A stretch of 60,800 bases of DNA from Haloprofundus halophilus (GTDB lineage: Archaea; Halobacteriota; Halobacteria; Halobacteriales; Haloferacaceae), in contig NZ_QQRR01000005.1 in the NCBI RefSeq assembly GCF_003439925.1, positions 1-60,800 of the forward strand. The letters are read 5' to 3'. Positions 1,107 through 60,182 of this stretch are shown here, in pieces. The translations under genes and the position numbers were made by a program. How positions within the stretch are numbered: the stretch's first letter is position 1; each line of letters begins with the position of its first letter. The notes beneath the pieces were generated by a model. The model did not search any database. It saw only the letters and a list, made by a program, of their open reading frames with translations, and was not told the origin of the DNA.

Positions 1107-2068
1107 TGGATCACCTCGTGACGTTCGACCTCGGAGGCCAGTTCGTCGATTTTCCGGGTCACTTCGATGGCTCGGAGGGCGTCTTCGCCGGTGACGCGCG
1201 GTTTCTCGCCGTTCTTCGCCGCCTCGACGAACGCCGTGAGTTCGTCGCGCAGCGGCTCGTTCTTCTCGACCATCGGCTGTTCGACGATGCTCTCGTGGCG
1301 GTAGCGCAGTTCGCCGTTCTGCTTGATGTACTCCGGCAGCGAGTTGCGGTGGATGTCGACCGACTGACTGATGTAGTCGACGTCGACGCGGCACTCGTCG
1401 GCGGTGACGCTGAGCGTGCGAACTTTCCGTTGCGTGAGTCGACTGGCCGTCAGCGAGACGACGGTGCCGTCGTCGAAGCGAATCTGGGCGTCCGCGTACT
1501 GCGTGTTCCGCGTACCCATGGCCGAGACCGACTCGACCTCCGCGTCGACGAGCGAGAGGACGATGTCCACGTCGTGGATCATCAGGTCCATCACCACGCT
1601 ATCCTCGAGGTCGCGGTTTATCGGCGGTCCGAGGCGGTGAGCCTCGATGGCGATGATGTCGAGGTCGGTGGTGATGTCGCTGAGCGCCGTGATGGCGGGG
1701 TTGAAACGCTCGATGTGGCCGACCTGCAGCGTCACGCCGGCCTCGTCGGCGCGGCGGACGAGTTCCCGGCCGACTTCGAGGTCGTCGACGAACGGCTTCT
1801 CGACGAGGAGGTCGACGCCGGCGTCGATGCAGTCTCGCGCGATGGACGCGTGGAAGCGCGTCGGCACCGCGACCGAAACCATGTCGACGGTGTCGAGCAG
1901 GCTCTCCATCGGGTACGCCGTCGTGCCGTACTCCTCGGCGATTCGGTCCGCCTGTTCGTCGTCCGCGTCGAAGACGCCCGCGAGGTCGACGCCGGGCATC
2001 TCGCTGTAGACTCGGACGTGGTTCTGTCCCATGTGACCGACGCCGATGACGCCGACTTTGGGATTCAC
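1103..2068 (-). CDS. Gfo/Idh/MocA oxidoreductase (WbpB/WlbA-like)
   Basis: A 321-residue NAD(P)-dependent oxidoreductase. The N-terminal Rossmann fold has the GVGHMGQNH dinucleotide motif at about residues 8-16, and a VEKPF motif, with the family's conserved lysine, follows at about 90-95. By family knowledge, WbpB/WlbA enzymes oxidise C3 of UDP-GlcNAc-uronic acid to a 3-keto sugar for the next aminotransferase. The gene lies between the DegT aminotransferase upstream and the UDP-sugar dehydrogenase downstream, with 4-base stop/start overlaps at both ends, which supports that substrate. The exact sugar is inferred from context; family membership is clear from the sequence. Confidence 0.9.
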   Translation of the reverse strand: MNPKVGVIGVGHMGQNHVRVYSEMPGVDLAGVFDADDEQADRIAEEYGTTAYPMESLLDTVDMVSVAVPTRFHASIARDCIDAGVDLLVEKPFVDDLEVGRELVRRADEAGVTLQVGHIERFNPAITALSDITTDLDIIAIEAHRLGPPINRDLEDSVVMDLMIHDVDIVLSLVDAEVESVSAMGTRNTQYADAQIRFDDGTVVSLTASRLTQRKVRTLSVTADECRVDVDYISQSVDIHRNSLPEYIKQNGELRYRHESIVEQPMVEKNEPLRDELTAFVEAAKNGEKPRVTGEDALRAIEVTRKIDELASEVERHEVIQ

Positions 2069-3171
2069 GCCATCACCTCCTCGCCGTGGGCGAGGACGGC
2101 GTCGGCGACGACCTCCAGGTCGTCGGCCGACAGCGCCGGGTGAACCGGCAGCGAGAGCGCTTCCGCGGCGGCCGCCTCCGCGTTCGGAGCCGCGTGACCG
2201 AGGTCCGCGTACGGTTTCTGCTGGTGAATCGGGACCGGGTAGTAGACACCGTACCCGACGCCGTGGTCGTCGAGCGTCTCCTGCAGTCCGTCCCGGTCGT
2301 CAGTTCTGACCGTGTACTGGTGGTAGGCGTGTTCGTAGCCCTCGGGCGTGTACGGCGTCGTCACCGACGACGCTTCGAGCAGGTCGTTCAGGCGAGCGGC
2401 GTTCTGCCGTCGGGCCTCGATGAACCGGGGCAGTTTCTCCAGTTGCGCTCGGCCGATGGCCGCACCGAGACTGGTCAGCCGGAAGTTGTGGCCGACGGAG
2501 ACGTGTTCGTAGGAGGAGCTCCCGCCGTAGGCGTTCGAGCGTCCGTGGTTGACGTACTCGGCGACGCCCTCCGCGACGTCGCGGCGGTTCGTAACGACCA
2601 TCCCACCTTCGCCCGTCGTCATGTTCTTCGTCGGGTAGAAGGAGAAGCAGGCGGCGTCGCCGAACGAGCCGACCGGTCGGCCGTCGATTTTCGCGCCGTG
2701 CGCCTGGGCTGCGTCCTCGACGAGCGCGAAGTCGTGCTCTTCTGCGAGTTCGACGAAGCGCGGCATCTCGGCCGGCAGTCCGTAGAGGTGGACCGCGAGC
2801 ACGGCATCTATCTGTTCGCCGTCTCGCAGCGCCGCCTCCAGCGCGTCGGGGTCGAGGTTGTACGTCTCGGGGTCGATGTCGAGAAACACCGGCTCCGCGC
2901 CGGCGAGTCGGACGGCGTTCGCGCTCGCGATGAAGGAGAACGGCGTCGTGGCGACGCGGTCTCCGGGGCCGATGTCCAGCGCCTCGAAGGCGGCGTGGAG
3001 CGCGGTCGTTCCGTTGGAGGTGGCGACGCCGTGGTCGGCGTCGCAGTAGGTCGCAAACTCCTCCTCGAAAGCGCGTACCTCGGGGCCGTCCGCGAGATAT
3101 CCGCTTTCGATGACGTCTTCGACGCGTTGCTGTTCCTCGGGGCCAAGTTCGGGGCTGGCGATTGGTATCAT
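2065..3171 (-). CDS. DegT/DnrJ/EryC1/StrS sugar aminotransferase (WbpE-like)
   Basis: A 368-residue PLP enzyme of the DegT/DnrJ/EryC1/StrS family, of normal length. The PLP-binding lysine is in SFYPTKNMTTGEGG (about residues 180-193), with the EDAAQAHGA segment before it. Such enzymes move an amino group from glutamate to a keto-sugar nucleotide. Between a 3-oxidising oxidoreductase and an N-acetyltransferase, the likely role is amination of C3 of a UDP-3-keto-GlcNAc-uronic acid. Its ATG overlaps the stop of the acetyltransferase and its stop overlaps the start of the oxidoreductase, so the set is an operon. The name wbpE is not assigned because the substrate is inferred. Confidence 0.92.
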   Translation of the reverse strand: MIPIASPELGPEEQQRVEDVIESGYLADGPEVRAFEEEFATYCDADHGVATSNGTTALHAAFEALDIGPGDRVATTPFSFIASANAVRLAGAEPVFLDIDPETYNLDPDALEAALRDGEQIDAVLAVHLYGLPAEMPRFVELAEEHDFALVEDAAQAHGAKIDGRPVGSFGDAACFSFYPTKNMTTGEGGMVVTNRRDVAEGVAEYVNHGRSNAYGGSSSYEHVSVGHNFRLTSLGAAIGRAQLEKLPRFIEARRQNAARLNDLLEASSVTTPYTPEGYEHAYHQYTVRTDDRDGLQETLDDHGVGYGVYYPVPIHQQKPYADLGHAAPNAEAAAAEALSLPVHPALSADDLEVVADAVLAHGEEVMA

Positions 3172-3809: not shown

Positions 3810-4134
3810 GAATGACGTAGTGTAACCTCGACCGGGCGTCGGTCTCCCAGTCCGTACAGTTGCAACCCACACCTGATGGTGTCGTAGCTTTGTTATTCAC
3901 AGCCTGATGGAGGAGTATGTGCCAGTTTACCATTTTCCGTAAGGTTTCGTAGTGTAATTATCCGCAAACGCCACGATAGAACGGGGCGGCAGCTACATTA
4001 CAACGAACGGTAACTACAGGCCCTCTGAACGTTAGTCGGCGGATAGTAAAGTGGAGATAGAGTGGATGAATAGGATATGTACTGCCAGCCTAGCCGAATC
4101 GTGGACGGAGTGAACTCATGGCCTCACGCGAGGG
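3810..4134. other. Divergent intergenic region, glycan operon / membrane wHTH gene
   Basis: These 325 bases separate the minus-strand glycan operon from the plus-strand membrane regulator. They hold the ATAACAAAG element for the operon and an A+T-rich centre (3940-4080). I see no canonical TATA box close to 4135 and no convincing small gene; an ATG at 4118 opens a six-codon frame ending just before the regulator start. Confidence 0.6.
3888..3896 (-). promoter_or_regulatory. ATAACAAAG promoter-like element, glycan operon
   Basis: An exact ATAACAAAG on the minus strand, 78 bases before the ATG at 3809. Its upstream flank (CAGGCTGTGA) closely resembles the flank of the copy at 41043-41051 (CAGGGTGTGG). 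It is one of five exact copies, all in intergenic DNA in front of genes. Confidence 0.6.
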
Positions 4135-4665
4135 ATGACTAACGCGCCGTCCAGTGGACTCACGCAGGGTGAGTTGTTCGACACGCTCTGCAACGAGCGT
4201 CGGCTCGGCATCATCCGTCACCTTCAGGCCAGCGATGGCACCTCGGAACTGAGTCCGCTCGTCGACCACGTCGCCGCCGCCGAAAACGACAAGCGACCGG
4301 GCGAACTCGCTCGCGCGGAACGCCGGCGCGTCTACATCTCGCTGTACCAGACGCATCTACCGATGCTCGAGGAGCGTGGCATCGTCGAGTGGGACCGTTC
4401 GGACAACGTCATCTCGCTCCGTCCCAGCAGCGACGTCGAGAAGTATCTCGGTCACGGCTCCGAGAGCAAACTTCCCTGGCACGTGGGGTATCTTCTCACG
4501 GGCGTCTGCGGAATCGGGCTGCTGCTGTTGCAGACACTCAGCGTCGCACCGTTCGATGGACTCTCTCTCTCGTGGACTCTCGCCGTAGTGAGTGCCACCG
4601 TTCTCGGCGTCGTCGTCGTCCGATACGTACTCGAACGGCCGTCACGGACACCAATAACACCCTGA
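4135..4665 (+). CDS. Membrane-tethered winged-helix protein (DUF7344-like), paralog A
   Basis: A 176-residue protein. Residues about 10-100 form a winged helix with the signatures FDTLCNERR and VYISLYQTHLPMLEERGI; two hydrophobic helices follow (about 116-136 and 145-164), so the DNA-binding part should sit in the cytoplasm on a membrane hairpin. Three paralogs with the same plan occur at 10266, 17005 and 25747. The family is typical of Halobacteria; the DUF7344 label is from memory. The ATP-grasp gene starts 62 bases downstream on the same strand, so the two may be co-transcribed. The signal sensed and the target promoters are unknown. Confidence 0.82.
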   Translation: MTNAPSSGLTQGELFDTLCNERRLGIIRHLQASDGTSELSPLVDHVAAAENDKRPGELARAERRRVYISLYQTHLPMLEERGIVEWDRSDNVISLRPSSDVEKYLGHGSESKLPWHVGYLLTGVCGIGLLLLQTLSVAPFDGLSLSWTLAVVSATVLGVVVVRYVLERPSRTPITP

Positions 4666-4727
4666 GGCAAGAAGTTGTGAAGACAGACGGTCGTGAAAAG
4701 ACGTCCCGCAGCGACGAGCAGCGTTCG

Positions 4728-6506: not shown

Positions 6507-6593
6507 CTCAACGACACCTCGTACCGGAGTTCGCGCACGGTCGAGAGCGTGCCACGGCGGGAGTCGTGCCGGAAGTTGTCGAGACGGATGCCG

Positions 6594-8028: not shown

Positions 8029-8037
8029 ATTTGTTAT
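8029..8037 (-). promoter_or_regulatory. ATAACAAAT promoter-like element, padR-type gene
   Basis: ATAACAAAT on the minus strand, one base from ATAACAAAG, with 35 bases between it and the ATG at 7993. This is within the range of a TATA-box position for a short-leader transcript. Confidence 0.5.
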
Positions 8038-15593: not shown

Positions 15594-15602
15594 CTTTGGT
15601 AT
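15594..15602 (-). promoter_or_regulatory. ATACCAAAG promoter-like element, epimerase gene
   Basis: ATACCAAAG on the minus strand, one base from ATAACAAAG, with 24 bases between it and the ATG at 15569, the classic TATA-box distance for a leaderless message. The following GGGCCG resembles the GGCCGG that follows the element at 41147. Confidence 0.5.
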
Positions 15603-21915: not shown

Positions 21916-22737
21916 AGAATCGACCGCCGATTTCGGTCCGTCGACTCGACCGCCGAACGGGTACCGCTTCCGAGAGACTCGTGCTCGACCGTCCGGAGAG
22001 CTACACTTCGAGAGGACACCCTCCGGTCAGAGTTTCGCTAAAAGGGTGCAGACCGACGCCTTCGTCTCGGCTCCACGGCCAGTAGCCGAGCAAGCGCAGA
22101 TGGCCTGCGAACCGACATCCGGGCAAGTGCCGGCTCAGCGCTCGAGGGAAGTCCACGTGCGCCACTGCATTCATAAAGAGCTACCCTCTTCGTTATATGC
22201 TAATTACCGCGCTGAAACCCTGGCCTAAGTAAAGTACCACGGGTCGGGTGACCCGTGGCGTTCGTCTCTGGCCACGTCCACGAAGCCCGTGGAACGGTGA
22301 CGGCACCGAACTTTAATTCCCTCCGCGCTCGCCGTAAGGCTCGCGTGGAACCAGTAACACCCGAACACGACCGTGAATCCTACCCTAATAGAGGTCGTCT
22401 ATCAGGCAATAGGAACCGTGTCCGTGGAGGTCAGCCGCTTTACGTCGACTCGACACCACCCGGCTCACCGAGTTTGTTGCAGTCGGTTTTTGCGAGGTCG
22501 TTAACGGTGAGTTCCACCCCAAGATACGTCATATTAGCACTTGAAACTATGGATTGTAGCGGAAGCGTACGCGATTCATCCACGGGTCAGGTGACCCGTG
22601 GAACTCTCGCTGTTCTCTTTAGAGAACGGGCCGCATTTCGGCCGAGCGGCGCGAAATCGGTTCGGCTCGCAGTCGGTCCGCCGAAAGTGAACTCGCTCCG
22701 ATTTCCCGAACTCGCCGGTACGCGATGGACTCCCTCG
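21916..22737. other. Intergenic region with two copies of one palindrome
   Basis: About 820 bases between the par locus and the TFB gene. Two 22-base palindromes (22237-22258 and 22580-22601) share CCACGGGTC...GACCCGTGG arms and bracket about 320 bases that code for nothing intact. Such hairpins are known at ends of haloarchaeal IS200/IS605-type elements, so this may be a decayed or non-autonomous element. Confidence 0.45.
22237..22601. mobile_element. Possible IS200/IS605-type remnant or MITE
   Basis: Delimited by two near-identical hairpins, CCACGGGTC-GGGT-GACCCGTGG and CCACGGGTC-AGGT-GACCCGTGG, in direct order. The interior lacks an intact transposase; a reading frame through 22330-22430 has the Arg-rich composition of the C-termini of haloarchaeal TnpB proteins, but this is weak. 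No target duplication is evident, as usual for this family. Confidence 0.4.
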
Positions 22738-23658
22738 CTACGTGACGACCTCGAGCTGCTCGCGGTAGCGATTTCGGATCGTGACGTCTGTCACTTGTGC
22801 TACCTCTGCGACTTCCCGCTGCGTCAGGTTCGTATCCGTGAGCACGGCGGCGGCGTAAATCGCCGCAGCAGCGTACCCAGGCGGCGACTTCCCGGAGTGA
22901 AGCCCCGTGGCGGTCGTCTTCTCCAGAATCTCGCGCGCCTGTGCCTGCACTTCGTGGCTGACACCGAGTTTCGAACAGAAGCGCGGAAGATACTGCGCGG
23001 GGTCGGTCGGCTCCAACTGGAGGTCGAGTTCGTCCGCGATATACCGGTACGACCGCCCGATTTCACGCTGTTCGACTCGCGAGACGTTCGACACTTCCTC
23101 CAAACTTCGCGGTACGTTGCCCTGACGGCACGCCGCGTACAACGCGCTCGTCGAGATTCCCTCGATGGAACGTCCCCGAATGAGGTCTTTGTTGAGCGCC
23201 TGCCGGTAGATGACCGCCGCCACCTCCCGGACGGAGTCCGGTATCCCCAGCGCGCTCGACATCCGGTCGATTTCGCTCAGCGCGTACTGCAGATTCCGTT
23301 CGTCCGCGTTTCGCGTCCGAATCCGCTCCTGCCACGTGCGCATACGCGACAGCTGTCGTCGCTTCTCGGAGTCGATCATCCGACCGTGCGCGTCGCGGTT
23401 GCCCGCGCCGATCTCGGTCGTCAACCCCTTGTCGTGTATCATCTGCGTGATCGGCGCTCCGACACGCGAGCGACTGTCCCGCTCCTGTTTGTTGAATGCA
23501 CGCCACTCTGCCCCTCGGTCGATAGCAGTCTCCTCTGCTACGAGACCACACGAGTCACAGACGACTTCCCCTCGCTCTGTGTCGGTGACGAGCGGCCCTC
23601 CGCAGTCCGGGCACTCGTCCCCTCTGTCTCCCGTGCGCTGCTCGACGGTCCGCGTCAT
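22738..23658 (-). CDS. tfb: Transcription initiation factor IIB (TFB)
   Basis: A 306-residue TFB of normal length. The N-terminal zinc ribbon has CPDC (16-19) and CDSC (34-37). The B-finger region follows (DRGAEWRAF and GAPITQMIHDKGL), then two cyclin-like repeats (about 115-205 and 210-300). The recognition helix region ends in VTIRNRYREQLEV. TFB recruits RNA polymerase and reads the BRE beside the TATA box. Haloarchaea keep several TFBs with different promoter preferences; a replicon-borne copy could favour the unusual ATAACAAAG promoters seen here, which is inference. Confidence 0.95.
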   Translation of the reverse strand: MTRTVEQRTGDRGDECPDCGGPLVTDTERGEVVCDSCGLVAEETAIDRGAEWRAFNKQERDSRSRVGAPITQMIHDKGLTTEIGAGNRDAHGRMIDSEKRRQLSRMRTWQERIRTRNADERNLQYALSEIDRMSSALGIPDSVREVAAVIYRQALNKDLIRGRSIEGISTSALYAACRQGNVPRSLEEVSNVSRVEQREIGRSYRYIADELDLQLEPTDPAQYLPRFCSKLGVSHEVQAQAREILEKTTATGLHSGKSPPGYAAAAIYAAAVLTDTNLTQREVAEVAQVTDVTIRNRYREQLEVVT

Positions 23659-25746: not shown

Positions 25747-26334
25747 ATGAGCGTCGCAGAAGGCCAGTTCAAACAGATCCAAGAGTCCCAACAGGACGAC
25801 GACGCCGAACAACTCTCGCTCGACGTCATCTTCGAGCTACTGAAAAACCGTCGTCGCCGGGACATTTTCCGATACCTGATGGAAGTCGAGCGGACGGTTA
25901 CGCTCTCGGAACTCGCCGAGCAGGTCGCCGCCTGGGAGAACGACATCGAAGTCCAGGAACTCAACTCCGACCAGCGAAAGCGCGTCTACGTCGCACTCTA
26001 TCAGACCCACCTTCCGAAGATGGACAAGGCGGGCATCATCGAGTACGAACAGGACCGCGGCAACATCACGCTCTCGGAGAACGCCGACCTGCTCAGTATG
26101 TACCTGAACGACGACACCGAAGCCGAAACCGAATGGGAGAAACGGTACCTCGGCCTCAGTCTCGTCGGCGGGTCGTTCGCCATCCTGTTCCAGCTCGCCG
26201 CCGTCGGTCAGCTGCTTCAGGTCCTCGTCACCGTCGCGTTCGTCGCGTCGGTTCTGGCCGTCTCGTTGGTTCACGCGCGCGACGTCCGTGAGACTCGCCG
26301 CGTCGCGGCCGAGAAGTTCTCTCGGATCAAGTAA
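25747..26334 (+). CDS. Membrane-tethered winged-helix protein (DUF7344-like), paralog D
   Basis: A 195-residue protein with VIFELLKNRRRRDIFRYL (about 27-44) and VYVALYQTHLPKMDKAGIIEYE (about 80-101), then two hydrophobic helices (about 135-155 and 160-177) and a basic tail. It has the longest linker of the four paralogs and the clearest family signature. It lies between divergent glmM and co-oriented glmS, so regulation of hexosamine synthesis is a reasonable but untested role. The start is the ATG at 25747. Confidence 0.85.
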   Translation: MSVAEGQFKQIQESQQDDDAEQLSLDVIFELLKNRRRRDIFRYLMEVERTVTLSELAEQVAAWENDIEVQELNSDQRKRVYVALYQTHLPKMDKAGIIEYEQDRGNITLSENADLLSMYLNDDTEAETEWEKRYLGLSLVGGSFAILFQLAAVGQLLQVLVTVAFVASVLAVSLVHARDVRETRRVAAEKFSRIK

Positions 26335-26720
26335 CCACACTCGCTATCGACGGTCCAGACACGATTTTCGCGGCCACAACCCGATCTGACCCGTCGGTCC
26401 GCCGTTCTCTCCCGACCGTCCCACTGACAGTCTGCAGTTCGTCTCAGTATCGAACAGCAGAACGACTCGTATCCCACCGTCTTCGGTATCGGTGCGCTAA
26501 ATCGCCCAACGCGGCCGTATGGACGGTCTCCTCGTTCGATTAGGGCAGGGTTGCCCGCCGTCAATTAGCGTATAACAATGATTGTACCACGTATAGGCTT
26601 GTTCGTTCACTCGACCCTCAAGTCGCAGAACGAAATTACCCATGACACTGGAACATTACACTCCGACGTATCCCGTCGAACGAGTGCCTGCTCCCGGTCG
26701 ACACGGAGGACACGGCTAAT
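26335..26720. other. Intergenic leader region before glmS
   Basis: About 385 bases. A GTATAACAATG sequence occurs at 26570-26580, about 140 bases before the glmS start, and resembles the ATAACAAAG elements loosely. I found no clear riboswitch or ribozyme fold by eye, and no gene. Confidence 0.45.
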
Positions 26721-33158: not shown

Positions 33159-33167
33159 ATTCCAAAG
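33159..33167 (+). promoter_or_regulatory. ATTCCAAAG promoter-like element, deacetylase-like gene
   Basis: ATTCCAAAG, two bases from ATAACAAAG, with 26 bases to the ATG at 33194. Flanks (CTC before, CCG after) fit the extended group. Listed because position and CAAAG core agree with the others. Confidence 0.4.
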
Positions 33168-35759: not shown

Positions 35760-35838
35760 CTAGCGCCTCTCACGATTTTCGGCTCACGACGCCTCTCAAC
35801 GCCGACCTACTCGGTTCGAGCGAGGGGATACGCGACGC

Positions 35839-35847
35839 ATAACAAAG
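35839..35847 (+). promoter_or_regulatory. ATAACAAAG promoter-like element, phosphatase-fold gene
   Basis: Exact ATAACAAAG with 31 bases to the ATG at 35879. The flanking GACGC and CGCG match the G+C-rich flanks of the others. Confidence 0.6.
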
Positions 35848-35878
35848 CGCGTATCCGGCATGTTTCCGTGTAGTAGCA

Positions 35879-37459
35879 ATGCATTCCGATTCATCGACGC
35901 GAGCGTTCGTGCTCGGTCTTGACGGCGTCCCGTGGGGGATGCTTCGGTCGTGGATAGACGACGGGCATCTGCCTAATTTCAAGCGTCTCGCGGACGAGGG
36001 CGCGTCCGGTTCGCTTCAGAGCACTCGCCCGGCGTCGACGCCGCTGGCGTGGCCTTCCATCGCGACGGGCGTCTGGCCGGACAAACACGGCCTCTACGAC
36101 TTCCAGCGACTCATGGAGGACTATCGCCGCGAGATGTACACGAGTTCGGACCTCTCGCGACCGGCGCTCTGGGAGATGCTGTCGCCGTCTGTCGTGGCGA
36201 ACGTACCGATGACTTACCCCGCAACCGACATCGACGGCAAGATGGTCACCGGGATGCTCACGCCCGGTTTCAACGACCGATTCACGAGTCCGGAGTCGCT
36301 CTCGGACGAGATACAGGAAGAGATTCCCGACTACGTCATCGGGATGCGGTACGCGGACTACCACAGCCGAAAAGACGAGTTCCCCGACGCTATCGAGAAT
36401 CTCGCCACTCAGCGCCGCAAACTGCTCTCGAAACTGATGACGGAGGAGGACTGGCGGCTGTTCTTCTTCGTCTTCACCGCGCCGGACAGACTCCAACACC
36501 TCGTCTGGGACGAGGAGACGCTGTTGACGCACTACCGACTGCTCGACACGGTTCTCGGCGACGTGCTTCGATACGTCGAGGAGCGGGAGGCGAATCTCTA
36601 CGTGGTCTCCGACCACGGCTTCGGCCCCATCGACCAGTACGCCTGCGCCAACACGCTGCTCGAACGGGAAGGGTTCCTCGTCCGAAAACAGGACAAGAAA
36701 CGCGGCGCGCTCCAGCGCTTCGGCTTGACGAAACAGCGCATCGAGGAGACGCTCGGGTCGGTCAACCTCGACATCGACACCGTCGCCCGACACCTCCCGG
36801 ACCGGTTCGTCGACTCCGTCGCCGACCAGGTTCCGGGCGACCACGCGCTCTACGACGCGGACTTTTCGAGGACAGAGGCGTTCGTCCACGGCTCCGGCCA
36901 CGTGTTCGTCAACGCCGCGGACCGGTTCGACGAGGGAATCGTCCCGCGCGAGCGCGTCCCCGAGGTCAAAGCCCGCCTGATGGAACTGTTCGAGAACTAC
37001 ACGGACCCCGAAACCGGCGAGCGCGTGTTCGAGGTGTTCGACGGCGACGACATCTACGACGACGACGAACGCTCCGCCGACATCGTCCTCGAGGGCCAAC
37101 CCGGCTACGAGGTCCGCGCGTCGCTCGCGGATGACGTCTGCATCGACAGCGGCCACCTCGAAGCGTCTCACCGCCCGGAAGGCATCTTCTTCGCCTGGGG
37201 CGACGACATCGCCCCCGGTTCGGCCGTCGACGGTGCGACGGTCGTCGACGTCGCCCCGACGCTGCTGCACGCACTCGGCGAGCCGGTTCCGGAGGACACG
37301 GACGGCCGCGTGCTGCTCGAAGCGTTCGAGGACGGTTCCGAACCCGCAACTCGGGACGTCGAGTACGGCCCCTACAGCGAGGTCGGCCGCGGCGAAGCCG
37401 AAGAAGAGGACTTCTCCGGCGTCGAGGACCGCCTGAAAGGCCTCGGCTACATGGAGTAG
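35879..37459 (+). CDS. Alkaline-phosphatase-superfamily phosphodiesterase-like protein 1
   Basis: A 526-residue member of the type I phosphodiesterase/nucleotide pyrophosphatase group. Asp15 in LGLDG and the nucleophile region STPLAWPSIATG supply the metal and catalytic centre; YVVSDHGFGP supplies further metal ligands. No signal peptide is present, so it may be cytoplasmic or exported otherwise. Family members hydrolyse or transfer phosphate or sulfate esters. A second gene of the same fold is at 47818. It converges on orc1/cdc6-2, and each gene of this fold lies beside glycan genes. Confidence 0.85.
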   Translation: MHSDSSTRAFVLGLDGVPWGMLRSWIDDGHLPNFKRLADEGASGSLQSTRPASTPLAWPSIATGVWPDKHGLYDFQRLMEDYRREMYTSSDLSRPALWEMLSPSVVANVPMTYPATDIDGKMVTGMLTPGFNDRFTSPESLSDEIQEEIPDYVIGMRYADYHSRKDEFPDAIENLATQRRKLLSKLMTEEDWRLFFFVFTAPDRLQHLVWDEETLLTHYRLLDTVLGDVLRYVEEREANLYVVSDHGFGPIDQYACANTLLEREGFLVRKQDKKRGALQRFGLTKQRIEETLGSVNLDIDTVARHLPDRFVDSVADQVPGDHALYDADFSRTEAFVHGSGHVFVNAADRFDEGIVPRERVPEVKARLMELFENYTDPETGERVFEVFDGDDIYDDDERSADIVLEGQPGYEVRASLADDVCIDSGHLEASHRPEGIFFAWGDDIAPGSAVDGATVVDVAPTLLHALGEPVPEDTDGRVLLEAFEDGSEPATRDVEYGPYSEVGRGEAEEEDFSGVEDRLKGLGYME

Positions 37460-40049: not shown

Positions 40050-41003
40050 TCAGGCCGTCTGCGCGATCTTCCGTCCGTTCTCGGCGAGGACCTCCTCGTA
40101 CACCTCGTAGATGTGGTCCGCCATCTGCTCGATACCGATGCGTTTCGCCTCTTCGCGGCCGTTCGACCGCTCGTTCAGTTCGAGTACCCGGACCAGATTC
40201 TCGACGAGTTCGTCGTCGGAGTCGCAGACGAAGGACGGATCGACCTCCGCGAGTCGTTCGGGGACGTCACCGACGCGCGTCGAAACGACCGGGAGGTTGC
40301 ACGCCAACGACTCCTTGACCACGTTCGGCGAGCCCTCGCGTTTCGAGGTGAGAAGCAGCGAGTCGGACGCGTTCATGTACACCGCGACGCGGGGATGCGG
40401 GAGGCCGCTGATGGTGTGGAGTTCGACCGGTTTCTGTACCTGTTCGCGGGCGGCCTCGACGACGCGCTCGGCTCGCGGGTAATCCTTCACCGTTCGGTCG
40501 GGGGAGTACGGGAACAACACGTGGTACGTGTCGTCGCTCCACCCGAGTTCCGCCCGCGCTTCCGACTGCGGCGTCGGGCTGAACCGCTCTAAGTCGACGC
40601 CGTGCGGGATGACCGAACACTCCTGTCCGAGCGATTCCTTCATCTCCTCGGACATCACGATGACGGCGTCGCAGAACCGGGCGGATATCCTGCTCACCGG
40701 TCGATAGGAGCCTTCGAGGTCCGACCCCCACAGCGACAACACGACCGGGAGGCGGGGCTGCGAGAGCGCCATCGGCGCGGTGAGGCCGTAGTTCGCGTGG
40801 ATCAGGTCGTACTTCCCGAGCGAGCGGCGGATGACCTGCGGGAAGAATCGCAGATAGTCGGTCGCCGTTCGCGGGGACCCCGCGCGGTGTTTGCCCGGAA
40901 CGGAGAGCGTCGTACAGGTTACCCCGTGCGACTCTTCGAGAGCCCGGACCTGTAGTCGGTAGAATCTTGCGTCGGCGTTGGTAGTCAGGTTGAGAACGTG
41001 CAT
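40050..41003 (-). CDS. GT4-like glycosyltransferase
   Basis: About 317 residues from the ATG at 41003, a GT-B fold. The N-terminal half has DLIHANYGLTAPMA and VLSLWGSDLEG, and the linker VIPHGVDLERFSP is a clear family mark. The C-terminal nucleotide-sugar site has SPNVVKESLACNLPVVSTRVGDVPE with the EX7E-type glutamates. Likely adds one sugar to a lipid-linked glycan inside the cell. It diverges from the DUF354 gene, and both promoters in the shared region contain ATAACAAAG. Confidence 0.9.
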   Translation of the reverse strand: MHVLNLTTNADARFYRLQVRALEESHGVTCTTLSVPGKHRAGSPRTATDYLRFFPQVIRRSLGKYDLIHANYGLTAPMALSQPRLPVVLSLWGSDLEGSYRPVSRISARFCDAVIVMSEEMKESLGQECSVIPHGVDLERFSPTPQSEARAELGWSDDTYHVLFPYSPDRTVKDYPRAERVVEAAREQVQKPVELHTISGLPHPRVAVYMNASDSLLLTSKREGSPNVVKESLACNLPVVSTRVGDVPERLAEVDPSFVCDSDDELVENLVRVLELNERSNGREEAKRIGIEQMADHIYEVYEEVLAENGRKIAQTA

Positions 41004-41042: not shown

Positions 41043-41051
41043 CTTTGTTAT
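41043..41051 (-). promoter_or_regulatory. ATAACAAAG promoter-like element, GT4 gene
   Basis: Exact motif on the minus strand, 39 bases before the ATG at 41003. Preceded by CAGGGTGTGG, a flank shared with the copy at 3888-3896. Confidence 0.6.
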
Positions 41052-41146
41052 CCACACCCTGATTGACCGCCTGTGGTGAGGGTTCGCTCACTCCCAAAAT
41101 CGGTAGACGGAACGGGGCTCTCCCCGAACGCACCGGTAGACGGGCC

Positions 41147-41155
41147 ATAACAAAG
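41147..41155 (+). promoter_or_regulatory. ATAACAAAG promoter-like element, DUF354 gene
   Basis: Exact motif with 27 bases to the ATG at 41183, within the same divergent region as the minus-strand copy at 41043-41051. Confidence 0.65.
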
Positions 41156-41182: not shown

Positions 41183-42298
41183 ATGAGGTATCTAATATTC
41201 ACGAACACTCCGGCCCACGTTCACGTGTACAAGAACGTGGTTCGGCGACTGGAGGACCGCGGACACGAAGTCCGCATTCTGGCGCGTGATTACACGTGCA
41301 CGAAGGACCTCCTCGAGTACTACGACCTCCCGTTCGAGATATACGGTCACCACGACACGGCGGCGTACTCGAACGTCGGGATGGCTCGGGAACTGGCGAC
41401 GCAACTACTCACGATTCCGGTCTCTGCAAAGCGCTTCGACCCCGACGTCGTCGTCGGTCTCGGCGCGTACGCCGCCTACGCGGGGACGCTCCTCCGCGCG
41501 GAGACGATTCTCCTCCGCGACTCCGCTCCCGGAACGCTGCTGCCGAAACTGGCCAGCAAGTTCGCAGACGCAGTACTCACGCCCGACGTGTACGGTCTCG
41601 ACCTCGGACCGAACCACTACACGTTCCCCGGGCTGAAGGAGTGCGCGTACCTCCACCCCGACGTGTTCGAGTCGGACCCGAGCGTCCGCGAGGAGCTCGG
41701 CGTCGGCCCCGACGAGCGCTTCGTCATGCTTCGCTTCAACTCGTTCGACGCGATGCACGACGCCGGAAAGAAAGGGTTCTCGCTGGAGGACCGCCGCAAA
41801 CTCATCGAGCACCTCTCCGAACAGGCGACGGTGCTCGTCTCCGACGAGGGCGACAACATGGACTTCGACGACCTCCCGGCGCGACCGTACGACATCCACC
41901 CCGCGCGGATGCACGACGCGCTCGCGGAGGCGTCGCTTCTCGTCGCCGACACCGGGACGATGGTCACCGAAGCGTCGCTGCTCGGGACCCCCGCCATCCG
42001 GTCGAGCGCGTTCGTCGACCAGGAGTTCGGCGAGTTCGCCGAACTCGAACGATACGGCCTCATCGACAACATCACCGACTTCGACGCCGTCGTCGAGCGG
42101 GCGGACGAGCTGCTCGCAGACGAGAGCGTCCCCGCGCGCTGGCAGGAACGTCGTCGGACGTTCATGGACGAGCGGGTGAACCTCACCGAACTCGTCGTCG
42201 ACGTCGTGACCGACCCGCGAGCGGTCAGCAAGAACGCCTCGCTGACTCGCTACAGTGAACGAAAGGGCGTCGAACAGACCGACGCAACACCGCTGTAA
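41183..42298 (+). CDS. DUF354-type glycosyltransferase-like protein
   Basis: About 371 residues from the ATG at 41183. The start MRYLIFTNTPAHVHVYKNV, then RILARDYTCTKDLL and a late LVADTGTMVTEASLLGTPAIR, are the signature of archaeal DUF354 proteins. These have a GT-B fold like UDP-GlcNAc 2-epimerases and some glycosyltransferases. Its stop and the ATG of the GT2 gene are separated by one base, so the two are co-translated. Function is inferred as sugar transfer or sugar-nucleotide conversion in the same glycan. Confidence 0.88.
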   Translation: MRYLIFTNTPAHVHVYKNVVRRLEDRGHEVRILARDYTCTKDLLEYYDLPFEIYGHHDTAAYSNVGMARELATQLLTIPVSAKRFDPDVVVGLGAYAAYAGTLLRAETILLRDSAPGTLLPKLASKFADAVLTPDVYGLDLGPNHYTFPGLKECAYLHPDVFESDPSVREELGVGPDERFVMLRFNSFDAMHDAGKKGFSLEDRRKLIEHLSEQATVLVSDEGDNMDFDDLPARPYDIHPARMHDALAEASLLVADTGTMVTEASLLGTPAIRSSAFVDQEFGEFAELERYGLIDNITDFDAVVERADELLADESVPARWQERRRTFMDERVNLTELVVDVVTDPRAVSKNASLTRYSERKGVEQTDATPL

Positions 42299-51278: not shown

Positions 51279-52295
51279 TTATCCGTTGATGAGACTGTAT
51301 GCTTTCTTCGCCATCTCCATGCTCGCACCCGACGATTCGACCGTGTAGTACGGGACGAGTTCGGCGCCGAACTTCGCTTTGTACCGGCAGAGTCGTTCGG
51401 TGTTCGCCCCCATGAGGTCGTAGGCGGTGACCGAGTCGATGGGCGCGTCGCCCTCGGCGATGTCCTGGATGATACGCCAGTGGATCAGGCTGTTGACCGT
51501 CGTGCCGTCGTACTCGCTTATCGTTCCGCCCTGCCAGAAGTACGCCATGTCGTTGGAGTACAGCGCGGTGATACCGCTGAGGTACTCACCGTCGGGGGTC
51601 CGAGCGAGGTACACCCGACACCGGTCGGTCTCGGAGAGCGCGTTCGTGAGGTCGCGGACGTACGGCCACGACAGCTGGTACTTTTCGCCCTGTTCCTCGT
51701 AGCGAGACTTCGCGTCCTCGTACACAAGCTTCGCGCCCTCGGATGCGGGAACCGCCTCGATGACCACGTCGGTGTCCTCGGCGTCTCGAATCTCGCGCCG
51801 GAGGCTCTTGCTGAACGAACTCAGCAGGTCGTCCGTACTCGTCCCCTCCGTTTCGAGCACGTAGGTGAAGTAGGGGTTGACGCGCATCTCGTTCCACGAG
51901 TACGGCCGCGGGTCGGGGTAGTCGGTGCCGCAGACCATCCGGAAGAGGCTGAGAGACGCATCGAGACCCAGGTCGTCGAGCACCTCCTTGGTGAACTCGC
52001 GGTTGACGCGTTCGCGCTTCCGTCGTTTCGGACTCGGCGACATCATGATCGGACCGAGTCGGGGGACTCCCATCGAAGGAGGCGGTGAGAACACGGCCGT
52101 CCCGACGGACCGACGGCGGACGACGAGGGGGAGGAGCGCGATCGCCTGCTCTCCTTTGAACCCACCGTAGAGCCGAAGTTCGCCGGGTGCGTGCTCGCGG
52201 AGGACTTTCAGCGCTTCCGACGTGTGGAAGACCTCGAAACCAGAAGACGGCAGCGCGTTGTCCCACGCTGTCAAGTCGAGCCGTTCAACTCTCAT
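51279..52295 (-). CDS. FemAB/GNAT-like transferase
   Basis: A 338-residue protein with two GNAT-like halves. FEVFHTSEALKVL (about 20-32) and YGGFKGEQAIALLPLVV begin the first; SFSKSLRREIRDAEDTDVVIEA and AYFWQGGTISEYDGTTVNSLIHW with DLMGANTERLCRYKAKFGAEL mark the second. FemAB proteins in bacteria add amino acids to peptidoglycan stems from aminoacyl-tRNA. Archaea lack peptidoglycan; related archaeal proteins are thought to modify surface glycans. It has its own ATAACAAAG element. Confidence 0.85.
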   Translation of the reverse strand: MRVERLDLTAWDNALPSSGFEVFHTSEALKVLREHAPGELRLYGGFKGEQAIALLPLVVRRRSVGTAVFSPPPSMGVPRLGPIMMSPSPKRRKRERVNREFTKEVLDDLGLDASLSLFRMVCGTDYPDPRPYSWNEMRVNPYFTYVLETEGTSTDDLLSSFSKSLRREIRDAEDTDVVIEAVPASEGAKLVYEDAKSRYEEQGEKYQLSWPYVRDLTNALSETDRCRVYLARTPDGEYLSGITALYSNDMAYFWQGGTISEYDGTTVNSLIHWRIIQDIAEGDAPIDSVTAYDLMGANTERLCRYKAKFGAELVPYYTVESSGASMEMAKKAYSLING

Positions 52296-52323: not shown

Positions 52324-52332
52324 CTTTGTTAT
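52324..52332 (-). promoter_or_regulatory. ATAACAAAG promoter-like element, FemAB-like gene
   Basis: Exact motif on the minus strand with 28 bases to the ATG at 52295. Confidence 0.65.
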
Positions 52333-52397
52333 CCGCCGCATACCCCGACGCAGTACCGTGGTTGTCGTCAACTACCGACGCGCCACAGAGAGGAGAG

Positions 52398-53303: not shown

Positions 53304-54695
53304 CTACTGTTCGAGGCGTTCTTTCGTCCGCATCTCACCGGGGCCGACGCCGATGGTGTAAACGTAGTGGTCGGTGTCGGAGAGGTCGAGCGCCTGCCGA
53401 CCGTCGACGACGATCATGTCGGCGAACTCGTTCCAGTCGATCTCCTGGAACTGCTCGTGGGCGGTGACGAGCACCGCGGCGTCGTACTCGTCGTCGGTGA
53501 TGTTCTCGAGGTCGACCGGCGTCGCCCCGAACTCGGCGACGTCGACGAGCGGGTCGGTCGCGTACACATCGGCGCCGAGTCCCTGCAGTTCCTCGATGAC
53601 CGGCGCTGCGGGCGTCGCCCGCGTCTCCGCGACGCCTGCGCGGTAGGTGACGCCGAGGACGAGCACTTTCGCGTCCTCGATGTCGGTGTGGCGACGCGAG
53701 AGCCCTTCGAGTAACTTCTCGACGCCGAATCCGGGCATCGAGTCGTTGACGTCGCGGGCGGTCTGTATCAGCGGCGTCTGTTCGGGGACCTGCTGCATCA
53801 AAAAGTACGGGTAGTACGGGATGCAGTGGCCGCCGACGCCGATACCGGGCGTGTGGATGTTGCAGTACGACTGCGTGTTCGCGGCCTCTATCGCCTCGGT
53901 CGTGTCGATACCGAGGCTGTCGGTGACGCGGGCGAGTTCGTTCGCCAGCCCGATGTTCACGTCGCGGTAGAGTCCCTCGAACACCTTGACCGCCTCCGCG
54001 GTGGTCGCGTCCGAGACAGGAATGACGTCGTTGTTCGTGATCTCGCCGTAGATCATCTCCGCGATGCGCGTGCTCTCGTCGTCGATGCCGCCGACGATCT
54101 TCGGGTGCGCTTCGCGGAGTTTGTACAGCGCCTTCCCGCTGGACGTTCGCTCCGGGCAGAACGCGAGGCCGAACTCGCCGCGCGAGAGGCCGCTCTCGCG
54201 TTCGAGAATGGGCATGACGACGTCCTCGCACGTGCGCGGCGGAACGGTACACTCGATGATGACGAGGTCGCCGGCGTCGAGTCCGCTGCCGATGTCGGCG
54301 CAGACCGATTCGAGCGCACCGAGGTCCGCCTCGTGCTCGTCGGTGATGAGCGTCGGTACGATGACGACGTGAACCGACGACTCCTTCGCGACCGCTCGGG
54401 AGTCCGAACTCGCCTCGAACCGGTCGCGTTCGACCTGTTCTGCGACGAGCTCCGGCAGACCCGGTTCGCCGTCGATGTGGCACTCCCCGCGGTTGATTCC
54501 GCGGACGACGTCCTCGTCGATGTCGACGCCGGTGACGTTACCGCTCATCTCGGCGTAGACGCCGGCCAGCGGGAGCCCCATCTTGCCGAGTCCGTAGATG
54601 GCGATGGGAACCGCACCGCTCGTGAGTCCGATGCGCTGTGCTTGCGTCGAGTACTCCGACCCGTACAGGCCGATTCCACGCGGAATGCTACTCAT
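53304..54695 (-). CDS. UDP-N-acetyl-hexosamine 6-dehydrogenase (WbpA-like), complete
   Basis: A complete 463-residue UDP-sugar dehydrogenase. The NAD site is YGLGKMGLP (34-42), the central domain has FCPERTSSGKALYKL and the catalytic cysteine is in GVGGHCIPYYPYF. It oxidises C6 of a UDP-N-acetylhexosamine to a uronic acid in two steps. A 25-residue leader before the Rossmann motif is usual for haloarchaeal members, so the ATG at 54695 is preferred to the start at 54983, which would overlap the oxidoreductase. It is coupled to the oxidoreductase by an ATGA overlap. UDP-GlcNAc or UDP-ManNAc as substrate cannot be told from sequence alone. Confidence 0.93.
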   Translation of the reverse strand: MSSIPRGIGLYGSEYSTQAQRIGLTSGAVPIAIYGLGKMGLPLAGVYAEMSGNVTGVDIDEDVVRGINRGECHIDGEPGLPELVAEQVERDRFEASSDSRAVAKESSVHVVIVPTLITDEHEADLGALESVCADIGSGLDAGDLVIIECTVPPRTCEDVVMPILERESGLSRGEFGLAFCPERTSSGKALYKLREAHPKIVGGIDDESTRIAEMIYGEITNNDVIPVSDATTAEAVKVFEGLYRDVNIGLANELARVTDSLGIDTTEAIEAANTQSYCNIHTPGIGVGGHCIPYYPYFLMQQVPEQTPLIQTARDVNDSMPGFGVEKLLEGLSRRHTDIEDAKVLVLGVTYRAGVAETRATPAAPVIEELQGLGADVYATDPLVDVAEFGATPVDLENITDDEYDAAVLVTAHEQFQEIDWNEFADMIVVDGRQALDLSDTDHYVYTIGVGPGEMRTKERLEQ

Positions 54696-55657
54696 TGGAT
54701 CACCTCGTGACGTTCGACCTCGGAGGCCAGTTCGTCGATTTTCCGGGTCACTTCGATGGCTCGGAGGGCGTCTTCGCCGGTGACGCGCGGTTTCTCGCCG
54801 TTCTTCGCCGCCTCGACGAACGCCGTGAGTTCGTCGCGCAGCGGCTCGTTCTTCTCGACCATCGGCTGTTCGACGATGCTCTCGTGGCGGTAGCGCAGTT
54901 CGCCGTTCTGCTTGATGTACTCCGGCAGCGAGTTGCGGTGGATGTCGACCGACTGACTGATGTAGTCGACGTCGACGCGGCACTCGTCGGCGGTGACGCT
55001 GAGCGTGCGAACTTTCCGTTGCGTGAGTCGACTGGCCGTCAGCGAGACGACGGTGCCGTCGTCGAAGCGAATCTGGGCGTCCGCGTACTGCGTGTTCCGC
55101 GTACCCATGGCCGAGACCGACTCGACCTCCGCGTCGACGAGCGAGAGGACGATGTCCACGTCGTGGATCATCAGGTCCATCACCACGCTATCCTCGAGGT
55201 CGCGGTTTATCGGCGGTCCGAGGCGGTGAGCCTCGATGGCGATGATGTCGAGGTCGGTGGTGATGTCGCTGAGCGCCGTGATGGCGGGGTTGAAACGCTC
55301 GATGTGGCCGACCTGCAGCGTCACGCCGGCCTCGTCGGCGCGGCGGACGAGTTCCCGGCCGACTTCGAGGTCGTCGACGAACGGCTTCTCGACGAGGAGG
55401 TCGACGCCGGCGTCGATGCAGTCTCGCGCGATGGACGCGTGGAAGCGCGTCGGCACCGCGACCGAAACCATGTCGACGGTGTCGAGCAGGCTCTCCATCG
55501 GGTACGCCGTCGTGCCGTACTCCTCGGCGATTCGGTCCGCCTGTTCGTCGTCCGCGTCGAAGACGCCCGCGAGGTCGACGCCGGGCATCTCGCTGTAGAC
55601 TCGGACGTGGTTCTGTCCCATGTGACCGACGCCGATGACGCCGACTTTGGGATTCAC
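54692..55657 (-). CDS. Gfo/Idh/MocA oxidoreductase (second reading)
   Basis: Same protein as at 1103-2068, here seen beside the complete sugar dehydrogenase it overlaps. Confidence 0.9.
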   Translation of the reverse strand: MNPKVGVIGVGHMGQNHVRVYSEMPGVDLAGVFDADDEQADRIAEEYGTTAYPMESLLDTVDMVSVAVPTRFHASIARDCIDAGVDLLVEKPFVDDLEVGRELVRRADEAGVTLQVGHIERFNPAITALSDITTDLDIIAIEAHRLGPPINRDLEDSVVMDLMIHDVDIVLSLVDAEVESVSAMGTRNTQYADAQIRFDDGTVVSLTASRLTQRKVRTLSVTADECRVDVDYISQSVDIHRNSLPEYIKQNGELRYRHESIVEQPMVEKNEPLRDELTAFVEAAKNGEKPRVTGEDALRAIEVTRKIDELASEVERHEVIQ

Positions 55658-56760
55658 GCCATCACCTCCTCGCCGTGGGCGAGGACGGCGTCGGCGACGA
55701 CCTCCAGGTCGTCGGCCGACAGCGCCGGGTGAACCGGCAGCGAGAGCGCTTCCGCGGCGGCCGCCTCCGCGTTCGGAGCCGCGTGACCGAGGTCCGCGTA
55801 CGGTTTCTGCTGGTGAATCGGGACCGGGTAGTAGACACCGTACCCGACGCCGTGGTCGTCGAGCGTCTCCTGCAGTCCGTCCCGGTCGTCAGTTCTGACC
55901 GTGTACTGGTGGTAGGCGTGTTCGTAGCCCTCGGGCGTGTACGGCGTCGTCACCGACGACGCTTCGAGCAGGTCGTTCAGGCGAGCGGCGTTCTGCCGTC
56001 GGGCCTCGATGAACCGGGGCAGTTTCTCCAGTTGCGCTCGGCCGATGGCCGCACCGAGACTGGTCAGCCGGAAGTTGTGGCCGACGGAGACGTGTTCGTA
56101 GGAGGAGCTCCCGCCGTAGGCGTTCGAGCGTCCGTGGTTGACGTACTCGGCGACGCCCTCCGCGACGTCGCGGCGGTTCGTAACGACCATCCCACCTTCG
56201 CCCGTCGTCATGTTCTTCGTCGGGTAGAAGGAGAAGCAGGCGGCGTCGCCGAACGAGCCGACCGGTCGGCCGTCGATTTTCGCGCCGTGCGCCTGGGCTG
56301 CGTCCTCGACGAGCGCGAAGTCGTGCTCTTCTGCGAGTTCGACGAAGCGCGGCATCTCGGCCGGCAGTCCGTAGAGGTGGACCGCGAGCACGGCATCTAT
56401 CTGTTCGCCGTCTCGCAGCGCCGCCTCCAGCGCGTCGGGGTCGAGGTTGTACGTCTCGGGGTCGATGTCGAGAAACACCGGCTCCGCGCCGGCGAGTCGG
56501 ACGGCGTTCGCGCTCGCGATGAAGGAGAACGGCGTCGTGGCGACGCGGTCTCCGGGGCCGATGTCCAGCGCCTCGAAGGCGGCGTGGAGCGCGGTCGTTC
56601 CGTTGGAGGTGGCGACGCCGTGGTCGGCGTCGCAGTAGGTCGCAAACTCCTCCTCGAAAGCGCGTACCTCGGGGCCGTCCGCGAGATATCCGCTTTCGAT
56701 GACGTCTTCGACGCGTTGCTGTTCCTCGGGGCCAAGTTCGGGGCTGGCGATTGGTATCAT
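55654..56760 (-). CDS. DegT/DnrJ/EryC1/StrS aminotransferase (second reading)
   Basis: Same protein as at 2065-3171. Confidence 0.92.
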   Translation of the reverse strand: MIPIASPELGPEEQQRVEDVIESGYLADGPEVRAFEEEFATYCDADHGVATSNGTTALHAAFEALDIGPGDRVATTPFSFIASANAVRLAGAEPVFLDIDPETYNLDPDALEAALRDGEQIDAVLAVHLYGLPAEMPRFVELAEEHDFALVEDAAQAHGAKIDGRPVGSFGDAACFSFYPTKNMTTGEGGMVVTNRRDVAEGVAEYVNHGRSNAYGGSSSYEHVSVGHNFRLTSLGAAIGRAQLEKLPRFIEARRQNAARLNDLLEASSVTTPYTPEGYEHAYHQYTVRTDDRDGLQETLDDHGVGYGVYYPVPIHQQKPYADLGHAAPNAEAAAAEALSLPVHPALSADDLEVVADAVLAHGEEVMA

Positions 56761-57398
56761 TCGAGTAAGTTACCTCCCTGAAGGTTCTCCGGCAGGGCCC
56801 GGTGTTTCGCGGGTGCGCCGACGGCGAGCGTTCGCGGCGGAACGTCTTCGGTAACGACCGCACCCGCGGCGACGAACGCTCCCTCGCCGACGGTAACACC
56901 GGGGAGAATCGTCGCGTTCGCGCCGATGGAGACGTCGTCTTCGAGCGTCGGGCCGACGAGGTCGACATCCTTACGAATCGGGTAGGGGTCGTTCGTCAGC
57001 GTCGCCGCAGGACCGACGAAGACGCGGTCTCCGATGGTCGTCCCGGTCGGGATGTACACGTTCGTCTGGAGGCTCACGTTCGAGCCGATCTCGGTCTGCC
57101 CGTCGATGACCGTGTTCGTCCCGACGAGCACGTCGTCGCCGAGCGTCGTGAGCTCCCGGATCAGCGCGTTGTGACCCGTGTTGAGCCCGTCGCCGGCGAC
57201 GACGTCCTGATAGATGATGGTGCCCGCACGCACGGTCGCACCCTCGCCCAACACAGTCGGTTCCGACGCGTTACCGTGCGGATGACCCAGTACTGCGGTC
57301 TCGTGGACGTCTGTGTCGGAGCCGAGCTCGACGGGCGACTCTCCGGCCGCGTGGCGGCGTATCTCCTCTGTTTCGCCGTGATTGTCTCTTTGTGTCAT
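56757..57398 (-). CDS. Beta-helix sugar N-acetyltransferase (second reading)
   Basis: Same protein as at 3168-3809, with the ATG at 57398. Confidence 0.88.
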   Translation of the reverse strand: MTQRDNHGETEEIRRHAAGESPVELGSDTDVHETAVLGHPHGNASEPTVLGEGATVRAGTIIYQDVVAGDGLNTGHNALIRELTTLGDDVLVGTNTVIDGQTEIGSNVSLQTNVYIPTGTTIGDRVFVGPAATLTNDPYPIRKDVDLVGPTLEDDVSIGANATILPGVTVGEGAFVAAGAVVTEDVPPRTLAVGAPAKHRALPENLQGGNLLE

Positions 57399-57723
57399 GA
57401 ATGACGTAGTGTAACCTCGACCGGGCGTCGGTCTCCCAGTCCGTACAGTTGCAACCCACACCTGATGGTGTCGTAGCTTTGTTATTCACAGCCTGATGGA
57501 GGAGTATGTGCCAGTTTACCATTTTCCGTAAGGTTTCGTAGTGTAATTATCCGCAAACGCCACGATAGAACGGGGCGGCAGCTACATTACAACGAACGGT
57601 AACTACAGGCCCTCTGAACGTTAGTCGGCGGATAGTAAAGTGGAGATAGAGTGGATGAATAGGATATGTACTGCCAGCCTAGCCGAATCGTGGACGGAGT
57701 GAACTCATGGCCTCACGCGAGGG
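57399..57723. other. Divergent intergenic region (second reading)
   Basis: Same as 3810-4134, holding the ATAACAAAG element. Confidence 0.6.
57477..57485 (-). promoter_or_regulatory. ATAACAAAG element, glycan operon (second reading)
   Basis: Same site as 3888-3896. Confidence 0.6.
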
Positions 57724-58254
57724 ATGACTAACGCGCCGTCCAGTGGACTCACGCAGGGTGAGTTGTTCGACACGCTCTGCAACGAGCGTCGGCTCGGCAT
57801 CATCCGTCACCTTCAGGCCAGCGATGGCACCTCGGAACTGAGTCCGCTCGTCGACCACGTCGCCGCCGCCGAAAACGACAAGCGACCGGGCGAACTCGCT
57901 CGCGCGGAACGCCGGCGCGTCTACATCTCGCTGTACCAGACGCATCTACCGATGCTCGAGGAGCGTGGCATCGTCGAGTGGGACCGTTCGGACAACGTCA
58001 TCTCGCTCCGTCCCAGCAGCGACGTCGAGAAGTATCTCGGTCACGGCTCCGAGAGCAAACTTCCCTGGCACGTGGGGTATCTTCTCACGGGCGTCTGCGG
58101 AATCGGGCTGCTGCTGTTGCAGACACTCAGCGTCGCACCGTTCGATGGACTCTCTCTCTCGTGGACTCTCGCCGTAGTGAGTGCCACCGTTCTCGGCGTC
58201 GTCGTCGTCCGATACGTACTCGAACGGCCGTCACGGACACCAATAACACCCTGA
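57724..58254 (+). CDS. Membrane-tethered winged-helix paralog A (second reading)
   Basis: Same protein as at 4135-4665. Confidence 0.82.
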   Translation: MTNAPSSGLTQGELFDTLCNERRLGIIRHLQASDGTSELSPLVDHVAAAENDKRPGELARAERRRVYISLYQTHLPMLEERGIVEWDRSDNVISLRPSSDVEKYLGHGSESKLPWHVGYLLTGVCGIGLLLLQTLSVAPFDGLSLSWTLAVVSATVLGVVVVRYVLERPSRTPITP

Positions 58255-58316
58255 GGCAAGAAGTTGTGAAGACAGACGGTCGTGAAAAGACGTCCCGCAG
58301 CGACGAGCAGCGTTCG

Positions 58317-60095: not shown

Positions 60096-60182
60096 CTCAA
60101 CGACACCTCGTACCGGAGTTCGCGCACGGTCGAGAGCGTGCCACGGCGGGAGTCGTGCCGGAAGTTGTCGAGACGGATGCCG

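Follow-up and report, generated by a model that had tools for sequence, protein, structure and literature searches.

A conserved nine-base element at the TATA position of surface-glycan genes in haloarchaea: a putative dedicated core-promoter class on a Haloprofundus plasmid and in its relatives

The bop promoter of Halobacterium has a non-canonical TATA box (GTTACA), no recognisable BRE and an upstream activator sequence, and its activation involves Bat, Brz and Brb (PMC2121645, PMC3184054). Non-canonical TBP-TFB pairs have also been proposed for it (PMC2121645). The ordinary haloarchaeal promoter has a BRE (CGAAA), a TATA box (TTWT) and a WW at -10 in front of a leaderless start, and most Haloferax transcripts are leaderless (PMC4983044). 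A third arrangement is that of EarA / TFB-RF1 in Euryarchaeota, where a sequence-specific factor near a weak core promoter recruits TFB for one set of genes. The repeated sites to which EarA binds lie 5' of the BRE in a promoter that has an ordinary TATA box (PMC5512572).

The DNA analysed here, termed the window, is the whole of a 60,800-bp contig (C5) of Haloprofundus halophilus. Its last 7,211 bases (53590-60800) are identical to its first 7,211 (1-7211) at 7211 of 7211 positions, and with such a terminal overlap in a contig of exactly 60,800 bp, the best reading of C5 is a circular plasmid of 53,589 bp whose ends overlap in the assembly, features within the last 7.2 kb of the contig thus being counted twice. 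Pfam scans show that the plasmid carries a set of genes for a sugar coat, including Gfo/Idh, DegT, hexapeptide acyltransferases, UDP-sugar dehydrogenase, epimerase, PGM and GlmS, as well as three glycosyltransferases, two Wzx-type flippases, two type I phosphodiesterases and a FemAB/GNAT protein. Proteins with beta-helix and PKD domains are also encoded, and the other genes include those for one TFB, RdfA, PadR, a DUF7343 protein, four DUF7344 proteins, three Cdc6 and ParA.

A first-pass annotation of the window had listed five exact copies of the 9-mer ATAACAAAG. The window holds six (Table 1), of which that at 57477 is the overlap copy of the one at 3888, because the terminal 7,211 bp are repeated; five independent copies are left. 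Every copy on the plasmid is intergenic and points toward a gene, as had been claimed. Fewer than one copy had been thought likely by chance, and the expectation is indeed 0.03-0.06: 0.03 copies for the window after shuffling, 0.03 for the intergenic DNA of the plasmid alone (5 seen) and 0.06 for the circle under a third-order Markov model (5 seen). Under this model no 9-mer of the circle is more over-represented than CTTTGTTAT/ATAACAAAG, which has the lowest p of all plasmid 9-mers (7e-9, or ~9e-4 when corrected for ~131,000 nine-mers). By pattern search, the 3.47-Mb genome has only four further exact copies, all on the large replicons C1 and C2. The distances reported earlier, 24-39 bases to the start codon at seven of nine sites and about 70-80 at 3888 and 7665, agree with those measured here. 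As the 3888 and 7665 sites lie 69-78 nt from the ATG, a core promoter at these two would need leaders.

Table 1. Positions of the element, its variants and associated genes in the window.
Feature	Position	Strand	Gap to start codon (nt)	Gene served, Pfam model or remark
ATAACAAAG element	41147..41155	+	27	DUF354-type glycosyltransferase gene (ATG 41183); conserved from Haloprofundus plasmids to Natrinema (ATTACAAAG)
Upstream half GTA	41136..41138	+		11 bp 5' of the 41147 9-mer
ATAACAAAG element	41043..41051	-	39	GT4 glycosyltransferase gene; divergent from 41147
ATAACAAAG element	35839..35847	+	31	phosphodiesterase gene PDE1
ATAACAAAG element	52324..52332	-	28	FemAB/GNAT-type acyltransferase gene; GTA at 52341-52343
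ATAACAAAG element	3888..3896	-	78	hexapeptide acyltransferase / DegT / Gfo-Idh / UDP-sugar dehydrogenase gene run
ATAACAAAG overlap copy	57477..57485	-		duplicate of 3888, not independent
Variant ATAACAAAA	7665..7673	-	~69 to ATG (TTG at 30 not conserved)	DUF1616 membrane-protein gene; GTA 11 bp upstream
Variant ATAACAAAT	8029..8037	-	35	PadR regulator gene; same variant in Natrinema
Variant ATACCAAAG	15594..15602	-	24	sugar-nucleotide epimerase gene
Variant ATTCCAAAG	33159..33167	+	26	unknown 232-aa gene; kept in three sister plasmids
DUF354-type glycosyltransferase	41183..42298	+		PF04007
GT4-family glycosyltransferase	40050..41003	-		PF13439, PF00534
Type I phosphodiesterase (PDE1)	35879..37459	+		PF01663
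FemAB/GNAT-type acyltransferase	51279..52295	-		PF13480
DegT aminotransferase in motif-led gene run	2065..3171	-		PF01041
DUF7344 winged-helix protein	4135..4665	+		divergent from the 3888 operon; leading regulator candidate
Second island-linked DUF7344 protein	25747..26334	+
Divergent TFB paralogue	22738..23658	-		on plasmid; rival reader candidate

Within the genus, ATAACAAAG recurs in four congeners. In the five Haloprofundus genomes, 31 of 34 distinct exact sites have a same-strand coding-like ORF start no more than 150 nt downstream, and at 21 of the 34 the gap is 20-34 nt. With the reversed word, used as control in the same genomes, 3 of 26 sites were upstream of genes and none of the 26 had a gap of 20-34 nt. 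Motif frequency in coding regions had been named earlier as a test, and none of the 34 sites lies inside coding-like DNA. The near variants pointed out at 7665, 8029, 15594 and 33159 are present. All nine named sites are conserved in three sister plasmids, the spellings of the near variants being kept letter for letter, and neighbouring bases turn over there while the 9-mer stays. The 3888 site keeps its position in the three sister plasmids, and the motif is found before the same genes in Natrinema and in two further genomes (G120 and G026).

Chromosomal islands of Natrinema are collinear with the plasmid, and six of the nine named sites are kept there, the box standing before the same genes (PadR, DUF1616, the hexapeptide operon, the GT4/DUF354 pair and PDE1). 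The variant at 15594 (ATACCAAAG), although kept in the three sister plasmids, was not seen in Natrinema. The island has moved between replicons. A wider sample of 80 loci (1.0 Mb), taken from Natrialbaceae, Halorussus, Halegenticoccus and others and anchored on the DUF354-type glycosyltransferase, has 89 exact copies as against 4 for the reversed controls; because these loci are anchored on one glycosyltransferase, related sequences are counted repeatedly in much of the evidence from relatives. In many Natrialbaceae the promoter of this glycosyltransferase has GTA-N8-ATTACAAAG about 25-27 nt before the ATG, and a gap of ~26 nt is common to unrelated genes. Alignment of sites gives the full element as GWA-N8-AT(A/T)ACAAAG, with A at -9 in 95% of 81 ATAACAAAG contexts. 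The 9-mer of the first-pass annotation is therefore real, but the element is longer, with the GWA half 11 bp upstream, and is spread beyond this plasmid. On the plasmid itself the GWA half is absent at three of the five exact sites. Among 194 Halobacteria genomes, 403 extended elements were counted as against 43 for the reversed controls, and the element was found in 119 of these genomes.

The genes served by the element are mostly surface-glycan or secreted-protein genes. Downstream of it are found genes for glycosyltransferases, FemAB/GNAT acyltransferases, alkaline-phosphatase-type phosphodiesterases, sugar-nucleotide enzymes and polysaccharide deacetylase, and it also precedes genes for secreted or Thr/Pro-rich surface proteins. 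Occurrence before non-glycan genes had been another test put forward; the element is not spread over unrelated promoters, and other genes served, such as those for an MscS-like channel, an M28 peptidase and an MBL-fold protein, form a minority.

In 148 motif promoters the 9-mer mostly starts at -34/-35 from the ATG. AT content is highest from -35 to -27 in 421 other promoters from the same loci, and the most enriched hexamer in that slot is TTTATA. The element fills this TATA slot, about -34 to -27 from the ATG, and since Haloferax transcripts are mostly leaderless, this is where TBP and TFB should bind, judging by position. The position is that of a canonical TATA box while the sequence is not, the slot holding AT(A/T)ACAAAG instead of a TTTATA/TTWT box. 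A separate AT-rich 7-mer between -42 and -20 was found in 0 of 101 slot promoters as against 144 of 421 other promoters; the masking of 7 nt around the motif reduces the space in which a second box could lie, so that the comparison lends support without being exact. No consensus of the CGAAA type of BRE is seen in bases -7 to -1 before the 9-mer, which are GC-rich. The ATTACAAAG group has TA about 12-11 nt before the ATG, which would fit a -10 element. The element is real, conserved and specific to a class of genes, and it stands in the TATA slot of haloarchaeal surface-glycan promoters. The earlier proposal, that polysaccharide genes have a promoter class or a set of operators of their own, is supported.

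It is proposed that GWA-N8-AT(A/T)ACAAAG is the core-promoter element of a haloarchaeal surface-glycan regulon, that is, a dedicated promoter class gated by a sequence-specific factor for which DUF7344 is the leading candidate. We give this reading a probability of roughly two in three. The 9-mer would replace the TATA box ~27 nt before a largely leaderless start and would be the sole AT-rich anchor for TBP and TFB. As the box is unlike the normal TTTATA type, the basal machinery alone probably reads it poorly, and a factor touching GWA and the 9-mer, one helical turn apart, could switch the whole class on or off together. The sequence itself shows the element, where it stands, how it is conserved, which genes it serves and that no other box is present. 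That the element acts as a core promoter is likely; its use as a TBP/TFB site and the co-regulation of the motif genes are what we infer from this.

By analogy, the class resembles the non-canonical bop promoter, which is the nearest known case. A TATA-slot box that is off the archaeal consensus and contains C, together with the lack of a normal BRE, marks the bop type of promoter, and both features are found here, along with an element just upstream; the letters TTACA are common to bop GTTACA and ATTACAAAG. However, surface-glycan genes are served here, the 9-mer is a different and much more strictly conserved one, and it occurs in many families; where bop has an upstream activator sequence, only the short GWA half was seen 11 bp upstream. 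With the ordinary haloarchaeal promoter the element shares its distance to the start codon and, in one group, the TA near -12/-11, but it differs in the sequence of the box, its restricted gene set and its nine near-invariant letters. A factor rescuing a weak core for one gene set, as in the EarA/TFB-RF1 system, is what is proposed for this element, with the difference that conservation here falls on the TATA slot itself.

TBP usually demands fewer than nine nearly invariant letters. The nearly invariant 9-mer and the narrow gene set would also suit a repressor or activator operator that overlaps the TATA slot and hides a degenerate TATA function, with PadR or DUF7344 as binder, so that the conserved letters would serve a regulator and not TBP/TFB. 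The PadR of the Natrinema islands is 76% identical, and its promoter has the same variant ATAACAAAT. However, the stretches of G120 and G026 that bear the motif and were examined gave no PadR. The element also has a direction and lacks symmetry, whereas a homodimer usually binds a palindromic operator, and no other TATA-like box is left for the basal machinery. An operator of this kind keeps an appreciable but minority chance of being the correct explanation. A perfect 9-bp inverted repeat (GGATACGCG/CGCGTATCC; 35826-35856) surrounds the PDE1 motif at 35839. It was rejected as an operator, as it is not kept in genome G001, is only partly kept in the sister plasmids and has no counterpart at other sites.

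For the dedicated core promoter proposed above, the candidate factor comes from the DUF7344 family (PF24035), which is present in several copies on the plasmid and in related islands and has a winged-helix core followed by two C-terminal hydrophobic helices. The plasmid encodes four paralogues (4135, 10284, 17002 and 25747), each with the winged-helix domain and two hydrophobic helices; in the predicted model the core has a pLDDT of about 85-90 and the two helices are of low confidence. On this model the paralogues are possible membrane-anchored regulators, which may be able to sense the envelope. A search of solved structures by sequence with DUF7344 gave no match, and by fold it matched winged-helix structures only weakly. 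Across genomes, DUF7344 copy number correlates with motif number (rho 0.70, and 0.69 over 65 genera, as against -0.07 for a control word), glycan-gene content not being held constant and per-genome counts near 27 standing for at least that number. Within family f4, in which these counts are saturated, rho is 0.07, and the overall correlation is largely one between families. Neighbourhood points the same way: a DUF7344 gene is divergent from the motif-led hexapeptide/DegT operon in four lineages (the plasmids, Natrinema, G120 and G026); in 14 of 18 Natrialbaceae genomes, motif sites occur no more than 20 kb from the best DUF7344 relative; and in family f6 the motif is upstream of a DUF7344 gene. 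Autoregulation as a general rule failed, as the motif is close to the gene itself for just one of the 30 best DUF7344 relatives, and in family f8 some DUF7344-poor genomes still carry 2-3 motifs. The tie between DUF7344 and the element is one of guilt by association, through co-occurrence, neighbourhood and fold, and binding by DUF7344 is presumed from it; as the factor that reads the element, DUF7344 is a speculative and somewhat doubtful choice. A broader version, in which this would be a second haloarchaeal core-promoter type for the cell surface, usable by basal TBP/TFB only with a membrane-tethered DUF7344, so that the state of the envelope gates transcription for the glycan coat and glycoproteins while the class moves between chromosomes and plasmids with its regulators, is improbable as a whole.

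An alternative TFB, such as the divergent one of the plasmid, could also be the reader and act much as an alternative sigma factor does, with the element as its cognate core promoter, and the position of the motif fits core-promoter recognition. The plasmid TFB is 98-99% conserved between sister plasmids, a ~65% identical TFB adjoins a DUF7344 gene in the Natrinema islands and in all sampled Natrialbaceae, and the plasmid and island TFBs stand on long branches apart from the main TFBs, although such branches could be falsely joined. However, genome G003 has neither the plasmid nor a close relative of its TFB (best 65%), yet has six chromosomal sites, most at the same positions, so the plasmid TFB is not required for chromosomal sites; TFB number is also only weakly correlated with motif number (rho 0.35). 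This makes an alternative TFB an unlikely reader. As for arrangement, the TFB at 22738-23658 lies near the DUF7344 gene at 25747-26334 on the plasmid, and the TFB and the best DUF7344 relative form a directly divergent, conserved pair in the sampled Natrialbaceae.

A variant TBP recognising the altered box could be imagined, as haloarchaea often have several TBPs and non-canonical pairs were proposed for bop, but 39 genomes with a single TBP gene carry at least two extended motifs and 19 carry at least five, and TBP count does not follow motif count (rho -0.10). Such heavy use of the element in single-TBP genomes refutes a variant TBP as the general reader, unless divergent TBPs were missed at the E 1e-6 used for counting, and the idea is very improbable. 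Chance, or one promoter copied by gene duplication or plasmid recombination, is less probable still, and the data refute it unless non-orthologous motif promoters share alignable homology outside the element: several of the genes served are paralogous (phosphodiesterases) and the island is mobile, but the flanks of different sites have no obvious likeness beyond the element, the 9-mer outlasts its neighbouring bases, and both expected copies and reversed controls are low. Two other readings were dropped, an invertible promoter under site-specific recombination because the sites of relatives have a fixed orientation and a fixed distance to the gene, and a plasmid origin or partition repeat because ATAACAAAG recurs on chromosomes, where the sites stand at promoters.

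Literature searches with the 9-mer and with glycosylation and promoter terms, made mostly without subscription journals, found no description of the element, the 9-mer search giving only unrelated papers among the matches listed; under the same coverage no paper naming DUF7344 was found. To our knowledge, few archaeal gene classes are defined by a core-promoter sequence of their own, and except for bop they are mostly unproven. The present results point to a promoter type, so far undescribed, that is dedicated to the making of the archaeal cell surface. As the element is conserved across many genera, it supplies a list of surface-glycan and surface-protein genes to annotate. With it, one can test directly how the glycan coat of haloarchaea is co-ordinated, and whether promoter classes are defined by the many TFBs and orphan winged-helix proteins of these organisms.

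Some further sequences of the plasmid may be mentioned. The one-mismatch words ATAACAATG at 33092, which overlaps the downstream gene's start codon, and ATAACAATG at 45247 were set aside, as were ATAACAATG at 26572 and ATAACGAAG at 22188, which lie inside a longer shared repeat. This repeat (22188-22196 on the minus strand and 26572-26580 on the plus strand) has the common conserved block GGcaGGGTT...AATTAGCrTATAACrAwG and is apparently separate from the 9-mer element. The word TAATGCACT has four copies on the plasmid as against 0.03 expected, lies at least in part just 5' of the ParA start at ~20.4 kb (ParA at 20483) and looks like an origin or partition repeat. The RdfA-family gene of the plasmid (15809-16474; PF21811) encodes a rod-determining factor, and in haloarchaea an SMC-like partner usually adjoins RdfA (PMC10869688).
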